A stretch of DNA of 64,000 bases. It comes from an uncultured Clostridia bacterium. GTDB taxonomy: Bacteria; Bacillota; Clostridia; Christensenellales; UBA1242. A program made the translations under genes and the position numbers. Numbering within the stretch: position 1 is the stretch's first letter; every line of letters begins with the position of its first letter. Below the pieces are notes generated by a model that saw only the letters and a program-made list of their open reading frames with translations, was not told the DNA's origin and searched no databases. Below are positions 52,368 to 60,164 of the stretch, piece by piece. Location: assembly GCA_930990975.1 (NCBI GenBank), contig CAKNRR010000005.1:1-64000 (forward strand), read 5' to 3'.

Positions 52368-52427
52368 TTGACTATTTTATAAAAACTGCATATAATATTG
52401 CTAGCACTTAAATAAAGAGAGTGCCAA
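52368..52427 (+). promoter_or_regulatory. hrcA operon promoter and CIRCE operator
   Basis: TTGACT (52368-52373), 17 bases, TATAAT (52391-52396) form the promoter. CTAGCACTT, nine bases, GAGTGCCAA (52401-52427) is a CIRCE element with three departures from the consensus TTAGCACTC-N9-GAGTGCTAA. HrcA binding here would block transcription of the whole heat-shock operon. Confidence 0.88.
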
Positions 52428-52450: not shown

Positions 52451-53449
52451 ATGGAACTATCAGAGCGCAAAAAGAAAATTTTATGTATGGCTGTTGAAGA
52501 ATACATCAAAGATTGTTCTCCAATTACAAGTGGGGGGATAAAAGATGTTACTTCACTTAATTGCTCAACAGCGACACTTAGAAGTGAGCTTAATGCGCTT
52601 GAGGCTATGGGATTTTTAAAGCAACTTCATACATCAGGAGGGCGTATACCTACTGCGCAAGGCTATAGATATTATGTTGAGCACCTTCTTGAAAATGCCG
52701 AAGCCAGCGAAAAAGAACTTGACAATGTCAAAGAACTTATCTCGTCAAAGACAAGTAGTTTAAATGAGATTGTTTCTGGGATTGCTAAAATTGTCAGTGA
52801 AGCAACAAATTATCCAACTGTAATCATGGTTGATGGAATGGATAATTTGGTGTTGACAGATTTTAAAATAATTCCACTTCTTGAAGATAAGGTTATGGTG
52901 CTTATTGGAACAATTGCTGGATATATAAATCAAACCTTAGATGTCAGTGCAAGCATAGAAGATTGCAACAATGCGTCAATCTATCTTACAAAGCATTTCA
53001 AAGGCGAGACAATTGGCTTTATGATTGAGAATATTGAAGAGCTTGAAGAAGGCATGCTAAGTGAAATTGAAGCTTTTCAAAATGTTGTAAATTCTCTTAT
53101 AAAAGGTTTGAAAAAACTTAATAGTCAAAGATATCTGAATGTAAGAAGAGAGGGGAGTGCGAAACTTCTTGAAAACAAAAATGAAGTTGAAGATGCTAAA
53201 AAAATCCTTAATGTGCTTGACGATGAAAAAGAATTGTCAAACATGATGGAACTTGAAGGAAACGGTAATATAGAAGTCACTGTAGCGGACGAGAATGCCA
53301 GTTGCTCGGTGGTGAAGGCTCCAATATGTGTCAAGGGAAAACAACTTGCATCTATTGGTGTAATTGGACCTCAGCGAATGGATTACGCAGGGATAGCCTC
53401 AGCTTTAAAGGTAGTTATTGACAACCTAAATAACTTAAAAGGAGAATAG
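52451..53449 (+). CDS. hrcA: Heat-inducible transcription repressor HrcA
   Basis: 332 residues. The N-terminal winged helix (ILCMAVEEYIKDCSPITSGGIKD, TATLRSELNALEAMGFLKQLHTSGGRIPTAQGYRYYVEHLL) is followed by the GAF-like and dimerisation domains, ending VIGPQRMDYAGIASALKVVIDNL. HrcA binds CIRCE and is folded by GroEL, so misfolded proteins relieve repression. The CIRCE site is 23 bases upstream. It is the first gene of hrcA-grpE-dnaK-dnaJ, and grpE starts at its stop codon. Confidence 0.97.
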   Translation: MELSERKKKILCMAVEEYIKDCSPITSGGIKDVTSLNCSTATLRSELNALEAMGFLKQLHTSGGRIPTAQGYRYYVEHLLENAEASEKELDNVKELISSKTSSLNEIVSGIAKIVSEATNYPTVIMVDGMDNLVLTDFKIIPLLEDKVMVLIGTIAGYINQTLDVSASIEDCNNASIYLTKHFKGETIGFMIENIEELEEGMLSEIEAFQNVVNSLIKGLKKLNSQRYLNVRREGSAKLLENKNEVEDAKKILNVLDDEKELSNMMELEGNGNIEVTVADENASCSVVKAPICVKGKQLASIGVIGPQRMDYAGIASALKVVIDNLNNLKGE

Positions 53450-54202
53450 ATGTCTAAGCAATTTAGCGAAGAGATGGAAGATAAGTGTTGTTGCAATCAT
53501 GAAGAAGGCGCATGTGATTGCGAAAATGGCGATTGTGATTGCGGTTGCAAAGAAGGGAAACCTTGCACTTGTGAAAATTGCAATTGTCAAGGGCATGACG
53601 AAAATGAAAAAGATGAGTGCAATTGTCAAAAAGAAGGCTGCCACTGTGGCAACGAAGATTGCAAATGCGATGGCGAAAGACCATGTGACGAAGAATGTTC
53701 TTGCCATGGAGAATGCAACTGCGAAGAATGCACTTGTGAAGAGGAAGGAAAAGAATGTACTTGCGATGGACAGGAGTATGACAAAAGCATTGAATATCTT
53801 AACCTCGCAAGACAAATTCAAGCCGATTTTGAAAATTTCAGGCGTCATGCAATTGAAGATATAAAACAGGCAAGACTAAATGGTCAAGCATCAGTAATAG
53901 AAGTATTTTTACCTTGCCTTGACACTTTCAAAGAAGCAAAAAAATCTATTACAGATGAAAATGTGCTTAAAGGTGTTGAAATGATTGAAGAAAACATTAA
54001 CAATGCCTTAAAATCTATTGGAGTTGAAAAAATCAATTCAATAGGAGAAAAATATAATCCGCATATGCACAATGTTATTGCAGTTATGCGTGATGAAAGC
54101 AAAGATAATGATATCATCTTGGATGAATACCAAGCAGGATATAAATTGAACGATAAAGTTATAAGATATGCTAAAGTCATAGTCAATAAAAAGGAGGGTT
54201 AA
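53450..54202 (+). CDS. grpE: GrpE with metallothionein-like Cys-rich N-terminal domain
   Basis: 250 residues. The C-terminal part (about 110-250) is ordinary GrpE, the nucleotide exchange factor of Dna[43 protein letters not shown], and the beta-wing with [15 protein letters not shown] and [12 protein letters not shown]. The first 105 residues are not. They hold 27 cysteines (residues 13-105), mostly as CxC pairs (22/24, 29/31/33, 39/41, 44/46, 57/59, 64/66, 71/73, 83/85, 89/91, 94/96, 103/105), spaced by acidic residues, Gly, Asn and His, like a bacterial metallothionein. The usual long N-terminal coiled coil of GrpE is shortened. The start has AAAAGGAG and follows hrcA directly. Frame and operon context are normal, so the extension looks genuine. 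Confidence 0.93.
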
Positions 54203-54206
54203 TATT

Positions 54207-56042
54207 ATGGGAAAAATTATTGGAATTGACTTAGGAACAACAAACTCATGTGTTGCTGTTATGGAAGGTGGAAAACCTACCGTTATTGCAAATGCTGAAG
54301 GAGATAGAACAACTCCATCAGTTGTCGCTTATACAAAAGAAGGAGAAAGACTTGTTGGAAAAGTTGCAAAGCGTCAAGCTATTGTAAATGCAGAAAACAC
54401 TGTTCAATCAATCAAACGAGAAATGGGTACAAACTACAAGGTTACACTCAACGGGAAAGAATATACTCCACAAGAAATTTCAGCTATGATTCTTTCAAAA
54501 TTGAAAGCAGACGCTGAAAGCTATTTGGGAGGAGCAGTTACTCAAGCTGTTATCACAGTTCCTGCTTACTTCAACGACTCTCAAAGACAAGCAACAAAAG
54601 ATGCTGGAAAGATTGCCGGACTTGAAGTTTTGAGAATCATCAACGAGCCTACTGCAGCAGCTCTTGCTTATGGACTTGATAAAGGGGAAAACTCAAATCA
54701 AAAGATTTTAGTTTATGACCTTGGTGGTGGTACATTTGATGTATCTATTCTTGAAATAGGTGATGGTGTATTTGAAGTTTTATCAACAAACGGAAACACT
54801 CGTTTGGGTGGAGATGATTTTGATAACAGAATTATTGACCTTTTAGTTGAAGAATTTAAGAGAACAAACAACATTGACCTTTCAACTGATAAACTTGCAA
54901 TGCAAAGACTTAAGGAAGCTGCAGAAAAAGCTAAGATTGACCTTTCAGCAACTCCTAAAACAACAATCTCATTGCCATTCATTTCAGCTGATGCAACTGG
55001 TCCAAAACATATGGAATATGAACTTACAAGAGCAAAATTTGATTCTATCACAGAAGATCTTGTAAAAGAAACAATAGATTGCACAGTAAGAGCTTTGGCT
55101 GATGCAAAACTTGATAAAAATCAAATCGACAAAGTTATCTTAGTTGGTGGATCAACTCGTATCCCAGCTGTTCAAGAAGCTGTAAAAGAATTCACAGGAA
55201 AAGAACCATACAAGGGTATCAACCCTGATGAATGTGTAGCTGTTGGTGCTGCAATTCAAGCTGGTGTTCTTGGTGGAGAAGTTAAAGATGTTCTTTTGCT
55301 TGATGTTACACCATTGTCACTTGGTATTGAAACTCTTGGCGGAGTGTTTACAAAACTTATTGAAAGAAACACAACAATCCCTACAAGAAAATCTCAAATT
55401 TTCTCAACTGCTGTTGATAACCAACCAGGTGTAGATATTCATGTACTTCAAGGTGAAAGAGAGTTTGCAAATCAAAATAAGACTCTTGGAAGATTCCAAC
55501 TTTCAGATATTCCACCAGCTCCAAGAGGAGTTCCACAAATCGAAGTTACATTTGATATTGATGCAAACGGTATAGTAAAAGTTTCTGCAAAAGATTTAGG
55601 AACAAATAAAGAACAAAATATAACTATCACAGCATCTTCAAATCTTAAAGAAGAAGATATTGAAAAGGCAATCAAAGAAGCTGAAGCTCACGCTGAAGAA
55701 GACAAGAAGCGTAAGGAACTTGTTGAAACAAAGAACCAAGCTGACAACTTAGTTTATGGCCTTGAAAAGATGATCAAAGAAAATGGCGACAAACTTCAAG
55801 AAGAGGATAAGAAAAAACTTGAAGAAGCTATTGAAAAAGCAAAAACCGATATTGCAAGTGATGATATAGAGGTTGTAAAGAAAGCTATTGATGAACTTAC
55901 AAATGTTTCAAATGGAATTGTAAGCAAAATGTATCAATCAGCAGGTGCAACTGACGGCACAAATGCAAACGGAACAAATGATAACAATGGAAACAATGAT
56001 GGCTCTGACCCAGAAGTAGTTGTTGACGACGACAATAAATAA
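54207..56042 (+). CDS. dnaK: Chaperone DnaK (Hsp70)
   Basis: 611 residues, standard length. ATPase domain: [17 protein letters not shown], the phosphate-2 loop [30 protein letters not shown], and [11 protein letters not shown]. The substrate domain starts after the linker [19 protein letters not shown]. The C-terminal lid ends in a Gly/Asn/Asp-rich tail. It binds hydrophobic peptides with DnaJ and is recycled by GrpE. AGGAGG precedes the ATG, five bases after the grpE stop. Confidence 0.98.
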
Positions 56043-56096: not shown

Positions 56097-56618
56097 ATGA
56101 AAATTTTAATGATAATAGATATGCAAAAGGGTTTTATTAATGAAAATAATCAATTTTTGGTTGATAATATCAATAATTTAATAAAATCAAACAAATTCGA
56201 CAGGATTATTGCTACTAAATTTATAAATAATGGCGAAAACTATAAAAAATTGTTAAACTGGGATGAAATGAAAACTTCTCCACAAACAGATATTGTTATA
56301 GATTTACCAAAAAATGCAATTATCATAAACAAATCTTCTTATGGCTTACCATCAGAATTTTTGCATCTTGACGAAAAGGGAAGAATCAAATTCAATGATT
56401 TTTCCCTTTCTCCAAAAGATGAAATATGTTTGGCTGGGACAGATAGTGATGCTTGTGTTTTGGCTGTGGCATTTCAGCTTTTTGATAATGGTTTTGCTCC
56501 AAAGTTCATTATTGATTCGATTGGCTCATCATCAAAAAGATCAATTTCTTCTTGCGAATTTAAAACTATATTAGAGCGAAATTTTGGCAAAAAAAGTATC
56601 ATAAATGATGTAGATTAA
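56097..56618 (+). CDS. Isochorismatase-like cysteine hydrolase
   Basis: 173 residues of the isochorismatase/nicotinamidase fold. The catalytic Asp is in MIIDMQKGFI (residue ~8), a lysine in SSYGLPSEF or nearby IINKSSY, and the nucleophile in AGTDSDACVLAVAFQLFDNG (Cys near 120). The family hydrolyses nicotinamide, isochorismate or N-carbamoyl compounds; the substrate is not evident. It lies inside the heat-shock operon between dnaK and dnaJ, with a pyrophosphatase-like gene. The spacing (54 bases after dnaK, 10 before the next) suggests co-transcription. Such an insertion is unusual. Confidence 0.85.
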   Translation: MKILMIIDMQKGFINENNQFLVDNINNLIKSNKFDRIIATKFINNGENYKKLLNWDEMKTSPQTDIVIDLPKNAIIINKSSYGLPSEFLHLDEKGRIKFNDFSLSPKDEICLAGTDSDACVLAVAFQLFDNGFAPKFIIDSIGSSSKRSISSCEFKTILERNFGKKSIINDVD

Positions 56619-56628
56619 AGGGGATAAT

Positions 56629-56967
56629 ATGAATAGTATAGATTATCTTGGGAAAGAAGTTGAAGTGATTATGGATAGGCCATTAGGCTCAAGGCATCCA
56701 AAACATGGGTTTATTTATCCCGTAAATTATGGTTATTTGCCAAACACTGTTTCGGGAGATGGTGAAGAACTTGATGCGTATGTACTTGGAGAATTTAAAC
56801 CACTTGAAAAATTTGTAGGCATTGTCAAAGCCATAATTCATAGAACAAATGATAATGATGATAAACTCGTTGTCATGCCAAAGGATAAAGATTATTCTGA
56901 TGAGCAGATAAGAGCGCTTACAGAATTTCAAGAAAGATACTTTCAAAGCGAAATTATAAGAGAATAA
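56629..56967 (+). CDS. Short inorganic pyrophosphatase-like protein
   Basis: 112 residues, much shorter than soluble family I pyrophosphatases (~170). The core is recognisable: VEVIMDRPLGSRHPKHGFIYPVNYGYLPNTVSGDGEELDAYVLG, with the active-site tyrosines (YPVNYGY) and the Asp pair of DGxxLD. The middle Asp of the usual DGDPLD is Glu here (DGEELD). A further acidic stretch, NDNDDKLVVMP, matches the second metal cluster. It may hydrolyse pyrophosphate or a related phosphoanhydride. It is the gene directly before dnaJ (18-base gap), so it is probably heat-shock-inducible. Confidence 0.82.
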   Translation: MNSIDYLGKEVEVIMDRPLGSRHPKHGFIYPVNYGYLPNTVSGDGEELDAYVLGEFKPLEKFVGIVKAIIHRTNDNDDKLVVMPKDKDYSDEQIRALTEFQERYFQSEIIRE

Positions 56968-56985: not shown

Positions 56986-58101
56986 ATGGCAAATAAAGAT
57001 TATTATTCTATTTTAGGGGTTGATAAAAGTGCAAGTGAAGATGAGATAAAGTCCGCTTATCGAAGACTTGCAAAAAAATATCATCCAGATTTAAATAAAA
57101 CCCCTGAGGCTGCTGAAAAATTTAAAGATATAAATGAAGCTTATGAAGTTTTAGGCGACCCAAAGAAAAGAGCAAACTATGACCAGTTTGGTTCTGCTGA
57201 AGGAAATCCTTTTGGCGGCGGAAATGCTGGTGGTGGTTTTGGCGACTTCTTTGGTGGTGGCGGTGGCTTTTCTGATATTTTTTCTGATATATTCTCTGCA
57301 TTTGGTGGAAGAGGAGAAACTCGCTCAGTTAAAGGTCAAGACATCAATATTGCAATAAATTTGACATTTGAAGAAGCTTGTTTTGGTTGTGAAAAGAATG
57401 TCACAATTGGCAAACTTGAAAAATGTAGTTCTTGTAATGGAACAGGTGCCAAAAATGGAAAAGACTTCACGGTTTGCAACGAATGTAATGGCACTGGAAG
57501 GGTGAGATACCAACAAAACACACTCTTTGGGACAACAATAAGAGAGGCTGCTTGTCCAAAATGTAATGGAAGCGGAAAGATTATAAAAGAGAAATGTGCT
57601 GATTGCAATGGAAAAGGTGTTCAAAGAGTCAATAAAACGATAAAAGTCAAATTCCCTGCAGGTATTGATGATGGTCAAACACTTCGTATGAGAGGTGAAG
57701 GAAATGCTCCATCAAAAGATGGTGTAAACGGTGATTTAAACATAAAAATTTCAGTAACTCCACATAAATTGCTTGTAAGAAAAGGGAATGATTTGTATTT
57801 GGATCTTTATGTACCTTTCACAATGACAGTGCTCGGAGGCAAGGTTGATGTTCCAACTCCAGAAGGTAATTACAGCCTTAACATTCCAGAGCTTACACCA
57901 AGTGGCACAGTCATGAGAATTAAAGGAAAGGGTGTAAAACAACTCAATAAAGATACAAAAGGTGATTTGCTTGTAACAATCAAGGCAGAAGCACCAAAAA
58001 ATCTTGATAAGCAAACAAAAGCAAAACTTCAAGAAATTGCTCAGCTTATAGGGGATAATTCATATACAAAATATAACAACTATTTAAAAAAGATGAAATA
58101 A
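56986..58101 (+). CDS. dnaJ: Chaperone DnaJ (Hsp40)
   Basis: 371 residues, class A DnaJ. J domain (1-68) with YHPDLNK (HPD motif). A Gly/Phe-rich linker (about 74-108) has [19 protein letters not shown]. The zinc domain has four CxxCxGxG-type repeats: [24 protein letters not shown] and CADCNGKG. The C-terminal substrate domains follow. It stimulates DnaK ATPase and delivers clients. AAAGAGAGAT precedes the ATG. It closes the hrcA operon, although two metabolic genes separate it from dnaK. Confidence 0.97.
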
Positions 58102-59897: not shown

Positions 59898-60164
59898 TCA
59901 ACAATTTTTGTTAAGATTTTTGCTTAAATAATATCCAGCCATAAAAAACAAGGCATTTTTGGGAATACAAATTCCATCGCAAGAATTATTGTTTTGATTA
60001 AAATTGTTTGATGGGCAGTTACAGCATGGCTGGCAACAAAAATCGTTGGATGGGCAACAAGGAGGCTGGTTACATGGACAGCTTGTTTGCCAGCAACCAT
60101 TGTTGCAAGGGCACCTGCATAAATCTATGTGGCTTCCCATTCTATAGCATGTATTAATAATCAT
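59898..60164 (-). CDS. Small Cys-rich protein (possible spore coat protein)
   Basis: 88 residues with 17 cysteines, clustered between residues 6 and 65 (CRCPCNNGC, CPCNQPPCC, FCCQPCCNCP). Asn, Pro and Gln fill the spaces. A short hydrophobic segment follows near the C-terminus (ALFFMAGYYLS). TAGGAGGT precedes the ATG on the minus strand. No signal peptide is evident. Cys/Asn/Pro-rich small proteins of this kind are typical of spore coats, and the 15156 protein starts with a similar patch. A metal-binding role is also possible. Composition unlike the GrpE extension: few acidic residues. Confidence 0.65.
   Translation of the reverse strand: MIINTCYRMGSHIDLCRCPCNNGCWQTSCPCNQPPCCPSNDFCCQPCCNCPSNNFNQNNNSCDGICIPKNALFFMAGYYLSKNLNKNC

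Follow-up and report, generated by a model that had tools for sequence, protein, structure and literature searches.

A GrpE protein with a cysteine-rich, metallothionein-like arm in a family of gut Clostridia that carries similar tails on unrelated proteins

In E. coli GrpE, residues 1–33 form a disordered arm that is reported to compete for the substrate groove of DnaK and to lower the affinity of DnaK for its substrates through a motif, IIM, while the segment L63–R75 contacts the DnaK substrate domain and Gly122 is needed for DnaK binding (PMC12915176). According to a recent review, the groove role of the arm has never been directly visualized (PMC12987570, section 6), and the same source presents vertebrate GrpEL2 as a possible redox sensor acting through a cysteine. 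Among metallothioneins, LlMT and SmtA are reported to hold 9 and 4 Zn, respectively (PMC10612145). UBA1242 (Christensenellales) is an uncultured lineage of gut bacteria with small genomes, which lives by fermentation only, without respiratory chains, and holds sporulation genes; the paper that describes it makes no mention of GrpE or metallothionein (PMC12306168), and the words GrpE, metallothionein, and cysteine are likewise absent from the available part of PMC13155120.

We analyzed a stretch of 64,000 nucleotides (the window) from an uncultured bacterium of UBA1242, in which a preliminary description had pointed to a GrpE fused to a metallothionein-like domain and knew of no other such protein. 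Consistent with this, none of the matches listed in searches of the open-licence literature for a cysteine-rich, metallothionein, or N-terminal extension describes such a GrpE. Metallothionein tails or fusions on bacterial or gut proteins, trigger factor included, were also found in none of the literature matches listed, which is a weak absence.

The grpE locus and its product

The features of the locus are as follows.

52401..52427, + strand: CIRCE-like operator (HrcA site) upstream of hrcA-grpE, from an inverted-repeat consensus search
52451..53449, + strand: hrcA, heat-shock repressor, 332 aa (Pfam HrcA, E 4.8e-30)
53450..54202, + strand: grpE, whole gene, 250 aa (open reading frame; Pfam GrpE on residues 113–247, E 8.9e-33)
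53450..53782, + strand: CxC-rich acidic N-terminal tail, residues 1–111, 27 Cys (composition, pLDDT, codon selection in relatives)
53783..54199, + strand: GrpE core, residues 112–250 (AlphaFold2 block of pLDDT 92–98; PDB 4ani, E 1.7e-20)
54207..56042, + strand: dnaK, partner of GrpE (open reading frame, named by eye from sequence)
56986..58101, + strand: dnaJ with CxxCxGxG zinc motifs (open reading frame, named by eye from sequence)

Between dnaK and dnaJ (56097–56967) lie two further genes, isochorismatase-like and pyrophosphatase-like as judged by eye, and all the genes from hrcA to dnaJ are on one strand (+). The operon had been called canonically CIRCE-controlled. A CIRCE-like site does precede hrcA-grpE (chance expectation 0.01 in the DNA pattern search), but with three mismatches to what we take to be the CIRCE inverted-repeat consensus it is near-consensus rather than canonical. 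The sequence upstream of the grpE ATG is AAAAGGAGAATAG, and the hrcA stop codon directly adjoins the ATG. As first described, the extension is in frame with GrpE, a single frame (53450–54202, +) encoding all 250 residues. No ordinary start codon is available for a translation start near residue 108, codons 1 and 9 being the only in-frame ATG, GTG, or TTG among the first 135 codons. Two other frames are open across the tail, 53435–53848 (−) and 53499–53864 (+), which we take as a composition effect of DNA rich in TGY-GAY; the tail as a chance frame was rejected because the extension holds at least five cysteines in 89 of the 101 readable GrpE genes of the genus.

Translation confirmed 27 cysteines in residues 13–105, with one cysteine elsewhere in the protein. 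The CxC pairs and acidic spacers noted earlier are also borne out, because residues 1–112 hold 13 CxC and 35 Asp or Glu, together with 4 His and 10 Lys or Arg; the only apolar residues in this segment are two Met, one Phe, one Ala, one Tyr, and two Pro. A Pfam search of the whole GrpE protein placed no family on the extension up to an E value of 1. In the AlphaFold2 model (39 sequences), residues 1–110 form a block of pLDDT 42–56, with no structure predicted before residue 112; the model is metal-free and hence silent on metal-induced folding.

The remainder of the protein is, as had been stated, a normal GrpE, with a Pfam score on residues 113–247 of 113.7 bits against a cut-off of 25.8; the NCBIfam GrpE models shown also match, each below its own cut-off. 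The core is predicted to be intact: the model has helices at residues 112–166 and 170–189 followed by six beta strands, so that the long helix, helix pair, and C-terminal beta domain of the GrpE-type fold are all present in the prediction. Three solved relatives shown by the PDB search align from residue 110, 120, or 122 onward. In the alignment to E. coli GrpE (PDB 1dkg), residues 120–247 correspond to chain residues 62–194, a span that includes the E. coli segment L63–R75. Further, seven aligned GrpE sequences all have Gly175, presumably the equivalent of E. coli Gly122; this residue is kept in 90% or more of a set of 39, and 4ani also has a Gly at the aligned position.

The tail had been thought to replace most of the N-terminal coiled coil, and here the preliminary description went too far. 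The long helix of E. coli GrpE begins near residue 40, and the predicted start in the window protein, residue 112, corresponds via 1dkg to about E. coli residue 54; what is lost is the disordered arm and the first part of the helix. In relatives with short, cysteine-free arms the core starts at the same motif, EYLxxAxRxQA, and the shorter helix is therefore characteristic of the family and does not result from the cysteine tail. By residue composition, the arm (residues 1–112) contains no IIM-type hydrophobic motif. Separately, residue 156 (53915–53917), in the LPxLD core motif, is a cysteine in 90 of the 101 genus genes, some of them with cysteine-poor arms. In 30 genes sampled from other families the motif was found 23 times, mostly with Val at this position (17 of 23).

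Spread of the tail among relatives and selection on its cysteines

In what follows, family and genus are the labels of the genome collection searched. GrpE was matched in 103 of the 112 genus genomes, from which 102 loci were taken; with a weak match (G055) and a locus at a contig end (L041) left out, 101 genes were counted. Four genomes of 97–98% completeness (G019, G048, G057, and G066) gave no GrpE match, for which gene loss and contig gaps are both possible. Counted ahead of the core, cysteines number 5 or more in 89 of these genes, 10 or more in 72, and 15 or more in 52, with a maximum of 33; the other 12 genes have fewer than 5. The tails with at least five cysteines consist of 20% Cys, 20% Glu, 12% Asp, and 11% Lys, compared with 0.8% Cys in the core, and the commonest distances between cysteines are 2 and 4, which gives the CxC and CxC-x3-CxC style.

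At least five cysteines were also found in 20 of the 38 GrpE genes sampled from other genera of the family, representing 18 of the 30 genera sampled (one gene in this sample, L128 of genus g3, has a doubtful start). Elsewhere in the order, the arm holds no more than two cysteines in any of the 30 best-scoring GrpE genes from other families. Class-wide, a profile of tailed GrpE matched 333 of 342 genomes. Its scores run from 221 to 322 bits in the eight sampled members of the genus, the one other member of the family scores 108, and no genome outside the family scores above 151.5; among the 17 best outside-family loci, of which one gave no arm, the highest count was eight cysteines, indicating that weaker cysteine-bearing arms occur elsewhere too. 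Parsimony on a tree built from 166 GrpE cores required 19 changes between the cysteine-rich and cysteine-poor states, compared with at least 41 in 200 shuffles. Thus, the state of the tail is inherited, with repeated loss or gain.

Among named public contigs, whose genomes partly overlap the genus set, an arm with at least five cysteines was present in 19 of 80 loci, all within the 27 best-scoring. The preliminary description had allowed for an extension missing from all close relatives and produced by an assembly error; the extension recurs in relatives, and the 89 genus genes and 19 public-contig loci that carry it rule such an error out. A repeat scan detected no tandem repeat in the window's grpE tail. 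The tails of two relatives contain tandem units of 18 bases (4.9 copies at L298:1535–1622 and 4.6 copies at L092:619–701), and such units are a likely way for tails to grow.

Selection was assessed by aligning 28 disjoint pairs of relatives as DNA, each column being counted once per side and the rates being descriptive. Cysteine codons in the tail were replaced in 45 of 823 cases (5%) and silently changed in 166 of 823 (20%), compared with 885 of 3019 replaced (29%) and 402 of 3019 silently changed for the other tail codons. Purifying selection holds the tail cysteines while the spacers drift. Protein alignments gave a mixed picture: cysteine conservation was 93% with BLOSUM62, a matrix biased toward Cys, and 85% against 55% with an identity matrix, but there was no contrast when Cys was left unscored in the alignment (50% against 54%), and a Cys-blind window alignment test showed no cysteine conservation (48% against 74%). 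We judge that the two Cys-blind tests lost register by aligning drifting acidic spacers without anchors, and the DNA-level codon test is the one we trust on cysteine conservation.

Similar tails on unrelated proteins

The extension had implicitly been taken as a peculiarity of GrpE, which proved not to be the case: similar CxC tails are present on a dehydrogenase, trigger factor, a DUF1858 protein, MscL, and a small membrane protein, at the free end of the protein in each one read. A profile built from 20 tails and run on 148 family genomes matched in 36 and gave no match in the other 112, the window's own genome included. Because this profile misses the window's own genome and about half of the known tails (it recovered 52 of the 110 GrpE proteins with at least 8 Cys), its misses mean little. 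Seven of the profile's matches fall in other proteins, namely the dehydrogenase (G011, G098, G061, and G096), trigger factor (G234), and the DUF1858 protein (G251 and G253); profile matches in G225 and G226 were left out of this list of carriers. A tailed trigger factor is present in G234 and G229, both of one genus.

Searched at the DNA level, the pattern CxC-[GDE]-[DENK]2-CxC matched in 74 of the 112 genus genomes and its reversed form in 0 of 112. The window's own genome is one of the 38 without a match anywhere, GrpE included, because the cysteine spacing in its GrpE differs. The non-GrpE matches listed for the genus (18, up to G098) comprise 12 in the dehydrogenase, 4 in the small membrane protein, 1 in MscL, and 1 (G036) in no open reading frame. 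Class-wide, the pattern matched in 51 of 392 genomes, namely 4 of the 10 from the family and 47 of the 382 from elsewhere, in most cases with a single match; the reversed control matched in 5 of 392. Of 26 outside-family matches read, 12 lie in frames of at most 60 aa or in none, and, given also the reversed-pattern matches, part of the 47 outside genomes reflects chance.

The tailed dehydrogenase, which is present in 81 of the 112 genus genomes, is similar to 2,4-diaminopentanoate dehydrogenase: Pfam DAP_DH_C matches at E 4.7e-9, and the NCBIfam model ornith_Ord scores 125 bits, below its cut-off of 400. C-terminal tails with 3–16 cysteines were parsed at 69 of 77 loci, the unparsed eight being G026, G029, G036, G038, G045, G063, G070, and G104; the 361-aa frame in G045 suggests no tail. 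In the window's own genome the dehydrogenase (contig C3) ends in CPDCDGECHCHD, a tail of 4 Cys. At the threshold applied, no second strong acidic CxC tail besides that of GrpE was found in a third of this genome (464 kb, 1014 open reading frames; the window and 20 stretches), and a protein search with the tail across the whole genome, of limited sensitivity, returned GrpE alone. With no second strong tail, four cysteines on the dehydrogenase, and no pattern match in this genome, a distributed buffer is clearer in the relatives.

Next, we compared cysteine numbers in the GrpE and dehydrogenase tails of the 64 genomes in which both were read, and these are negatively correlated (Spearman −0.44, p 3e-4). 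When the GrpE-core tree was used for independent contrasts, r was −0.28 (p 0.023), but only 33 of 56 signed contrasts were negative (p 0.23). The trade-off rests on few events or lineages, chiefly G011/G075/G098/G108 and G005, in which the GrpE arm has 1–6 cysteines and the dehydrogenase tail 12–16. The five richest dehydrogenase tails are all in genomes with a cysteine-poor GrpE, and the median number of dehydrogenase-tail cysteines is 10 in the 8 genomes with a cysteine-poor GrpE and 5 in the other 56; for four of the 12 cysteine-poor genomes no dehydrogenase tail was read. Further, the GrpE arm of G234, whose trigger factor is tailed, has 0 cysteines.

The CxC tail style is not exclusive to the family, because short tails of this kind occur in other Clostridia. 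At L421–L424, L436, L444, and L450, proteins that look like zinc ribbons by eye carry short acidic C-terminal CxC tails of the CECDDECGCGC type. At L445 (G696), a small protein that by eye is ArsR-like, and probably a metal-responsive repressor, has ECICDEDCDCKELHV as its terminal CxC tail. A 202-aa protein from outside the family (L435, G688) has an N-terminal acidic CxC tail, with about 11 cysteines in its first 47 residues. The window also encodes an 88-aa protein with 17 cysteines (59898–60164, −), which is rich in Pro and Asn and lacks the acidic CxC style. Contig C1 of the same genome encodes another Asn/Cys-rich protein of this kind near 69 kb (L454:9010–9453), and both look like spore-coat proteins.

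Possible roles of the tail and comparison with known systems

On balance, the tail is probably a metallothionein-like metal-thiolate buffer that housekeeping proteins carry in cis in a single family of gut Clostridia with small genomes, and GrpE is the main carrier found in the window's genome. We infer metal binding, a buffering role, and induction of the tail as follows. The tail would be unfolded without metal and would fold around it; by analogy with known metallothioneins, and scaling from the cysteine counts of LlMT and SmtA, its 27 cysteines might bind some 9 Zn(II) per GrpE chain, or a larger number of Cu(I). Nucleotide exchange on DnaK would be done by the intact GrpE core, and with a CIRCE-like site before hrcA-grpE-dnaK, chaperones and metal/thiol buffer would both increase under proteotoxic stress. 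For a tail on the free end of a resident protein, the number of thiols rather than their exact spacing would count, the carriers being assumed to be abundant in the cell. Similar tails on unrelated proteins make such a carried buffer of metal and thiols more likely than a sensor specific to GrpE, and a metal-thiolate tail on resident proteins is the most economical way to account at once for GrpE, trigger factor, the dehydrogenase, MscL, and the DUF1858 protein. Selection on the cysteines and the negative correlation between GrpE-tail and dehydrogenase-tail cysteines also speak for the carried buffer, as does the HMA heavy-metal domain, which was not found in the window's own genome and is present in 13 of 14 control genomes. 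A broader reading, which we regard as possible but rather doubtful, is that a stand-alone metallothionein has been replaced family-wide by a distributed one, with CxC tails on free ends being traded between carriers and with buffering on GrpE and trigger factor coupled to the folding machinery and, for GrpE, also to heat-shock control.

If instead the tail gated GrpE, its metallation or oxidation would compact it, alter the action of GrpE on DnaK, and set client release under stress. The tail does occupy the place of the E. coli disordered arm in the 1dkg alignment and the AlphaFold2 model, and it is almost without hydrophobic residues where the E. coli arm is reported to lower substrate affinity via IIM (PMC12915176); the possible redox sensing by vertebrate GrpEL2 (PMC12987570) is a further point in favor. 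We nevertheless consider gating, the leading alternative, unlikely: tail length, cysteine number, and spacing vary widely, and 12 of the 101 genus genes fall below five cysteines, a variability that one would hardly expect of an allosteric device on a core factor; in addition, similar tails sit on proteins that are not chaperones. The same variation in length, with selection on thiols while spacers drift, would suit a sacrificial thiol pool that protects anaerobes against oxygen or other oxidants and binds metal only incidentally, in a family that is reported to live by fermentation only and to lack respiratory chains (PMC12306168). A thiol pool, however, would not need regular CxC and CxC-x3-CxC spacing with acidic, His-bearing spacers, which is the style of metal-thiolate ligands, and for this reason we hold it to be somewhat less probable again than gating. 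Very little likelihood attaches to delivery of Zn by the tail, whether to partners such as DnaJ or to new metalloproteins while DnaK or trigger factor holds them; although GrpE and trigger factor, two of the carriers, both take part in protein folding and the zinc protein DnaJ is (by eye) encoded in the same gene cluster, the most regular carrier beside GrpE is the dehydrogenase, and MscL and the membrane protein are also tailed. A non-adaptive low-complexity repeat spread by slippage of an 18-base unit is strongly disfavored, because, despite the units in both relatives' tails scanned, the window tail has no tandem repeat, cysteine codons are held while silent sites change, and the same amino acid style recurs on unrelated proteins.

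Returning to the metal-thiolate buffer, the recurrence of tails on unrelated proteins suggests a way of holding metal without a separate metallothionein gene, and the tails may let bacteria with small genomes buffer metals on proteins already made. If the distributed-metallothionein reading were true, metal buffering would be tied directly to protein folding and to the heat-shock control of GrpE. GrpE is central to protein folding in bacteria, and selection has kept a thiol-rich arm on it in some hundred species, which amounts to a natural experiment on arm function. If the tails bind metal, the wider occurrence of a single tail type on many unrelated proteins may merit further attention.

The comparison of the tail with a metallothionein is partly upheld: the CxC style and the selection on cysteines support the resemblance, but there is no significant match to a metallothionein family. 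The only PDB matches of the tail profile are two metallothioneins, 2kak (EC protein I/II) and 6qk5 (cadmium-metallothionein), at E 6–7, which is a hint and no more. Of 20 tails, one matches Pfam PF00131 (E 0.027) and the window tail none, and a profile comparison of the tail with human metallothionein-2 gave a weak 17% probability. The tail has the high cysteine content in CxC clusters with few apolar residues that marks metallothioneins; it is not a small free-standing protein, there being no ATG, GTG, or TTG between codons 9 and 135.

Like the animal, plant, and fungal metallothioneins of the CxC type, the tail has CxC pairs, about a quarter Cys, and almost no aromatic or aliphatic residues; it differs from them in being fused to another protein and strongly acidic, and in that its metal binding is putative. 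With the bacterial metallothioneins SmtA and BmtA it shares Cys and His as ligand residues in a bacterial protein. However, those are reported to be free, well folded proteins with a GATA-like zinc finger (PMC10612145), whereas the window tail is fused and has no Pfam match to and no predicted sign of such a fold, in a prediction made without metal. The short CxC tails of other Clostridia (the L421–L424, L436, L444, L445, and L450 proteins) are acidic and C-terminal, like tails of the family, but are short, are on zinc-ribbon-like or ArsR-like proteins (by eye), and give one pattern match each. Vertebrate GrpEL2 is likewise a GrpE-type factor with a proposed cysteine redox response, but is mitochondrial with one reported redox cysteine (Cys87) near the Hsp70 contact (PMC12987570), in contrast to an arm of 27 cysteines. 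With the GrpE family (PF01025), finally, the window protein shares the core match, the predicted fold, Gly175, and the order hrcA-grpE-dnaK, and it differs from other GrpE proteins in that the disordered arm is a CxC tail of 27 cysteines without an IIM-type hydrophobic motif. Overall, its sequence identifies the window protein as a true GrpE with a metallothionein-like arm.
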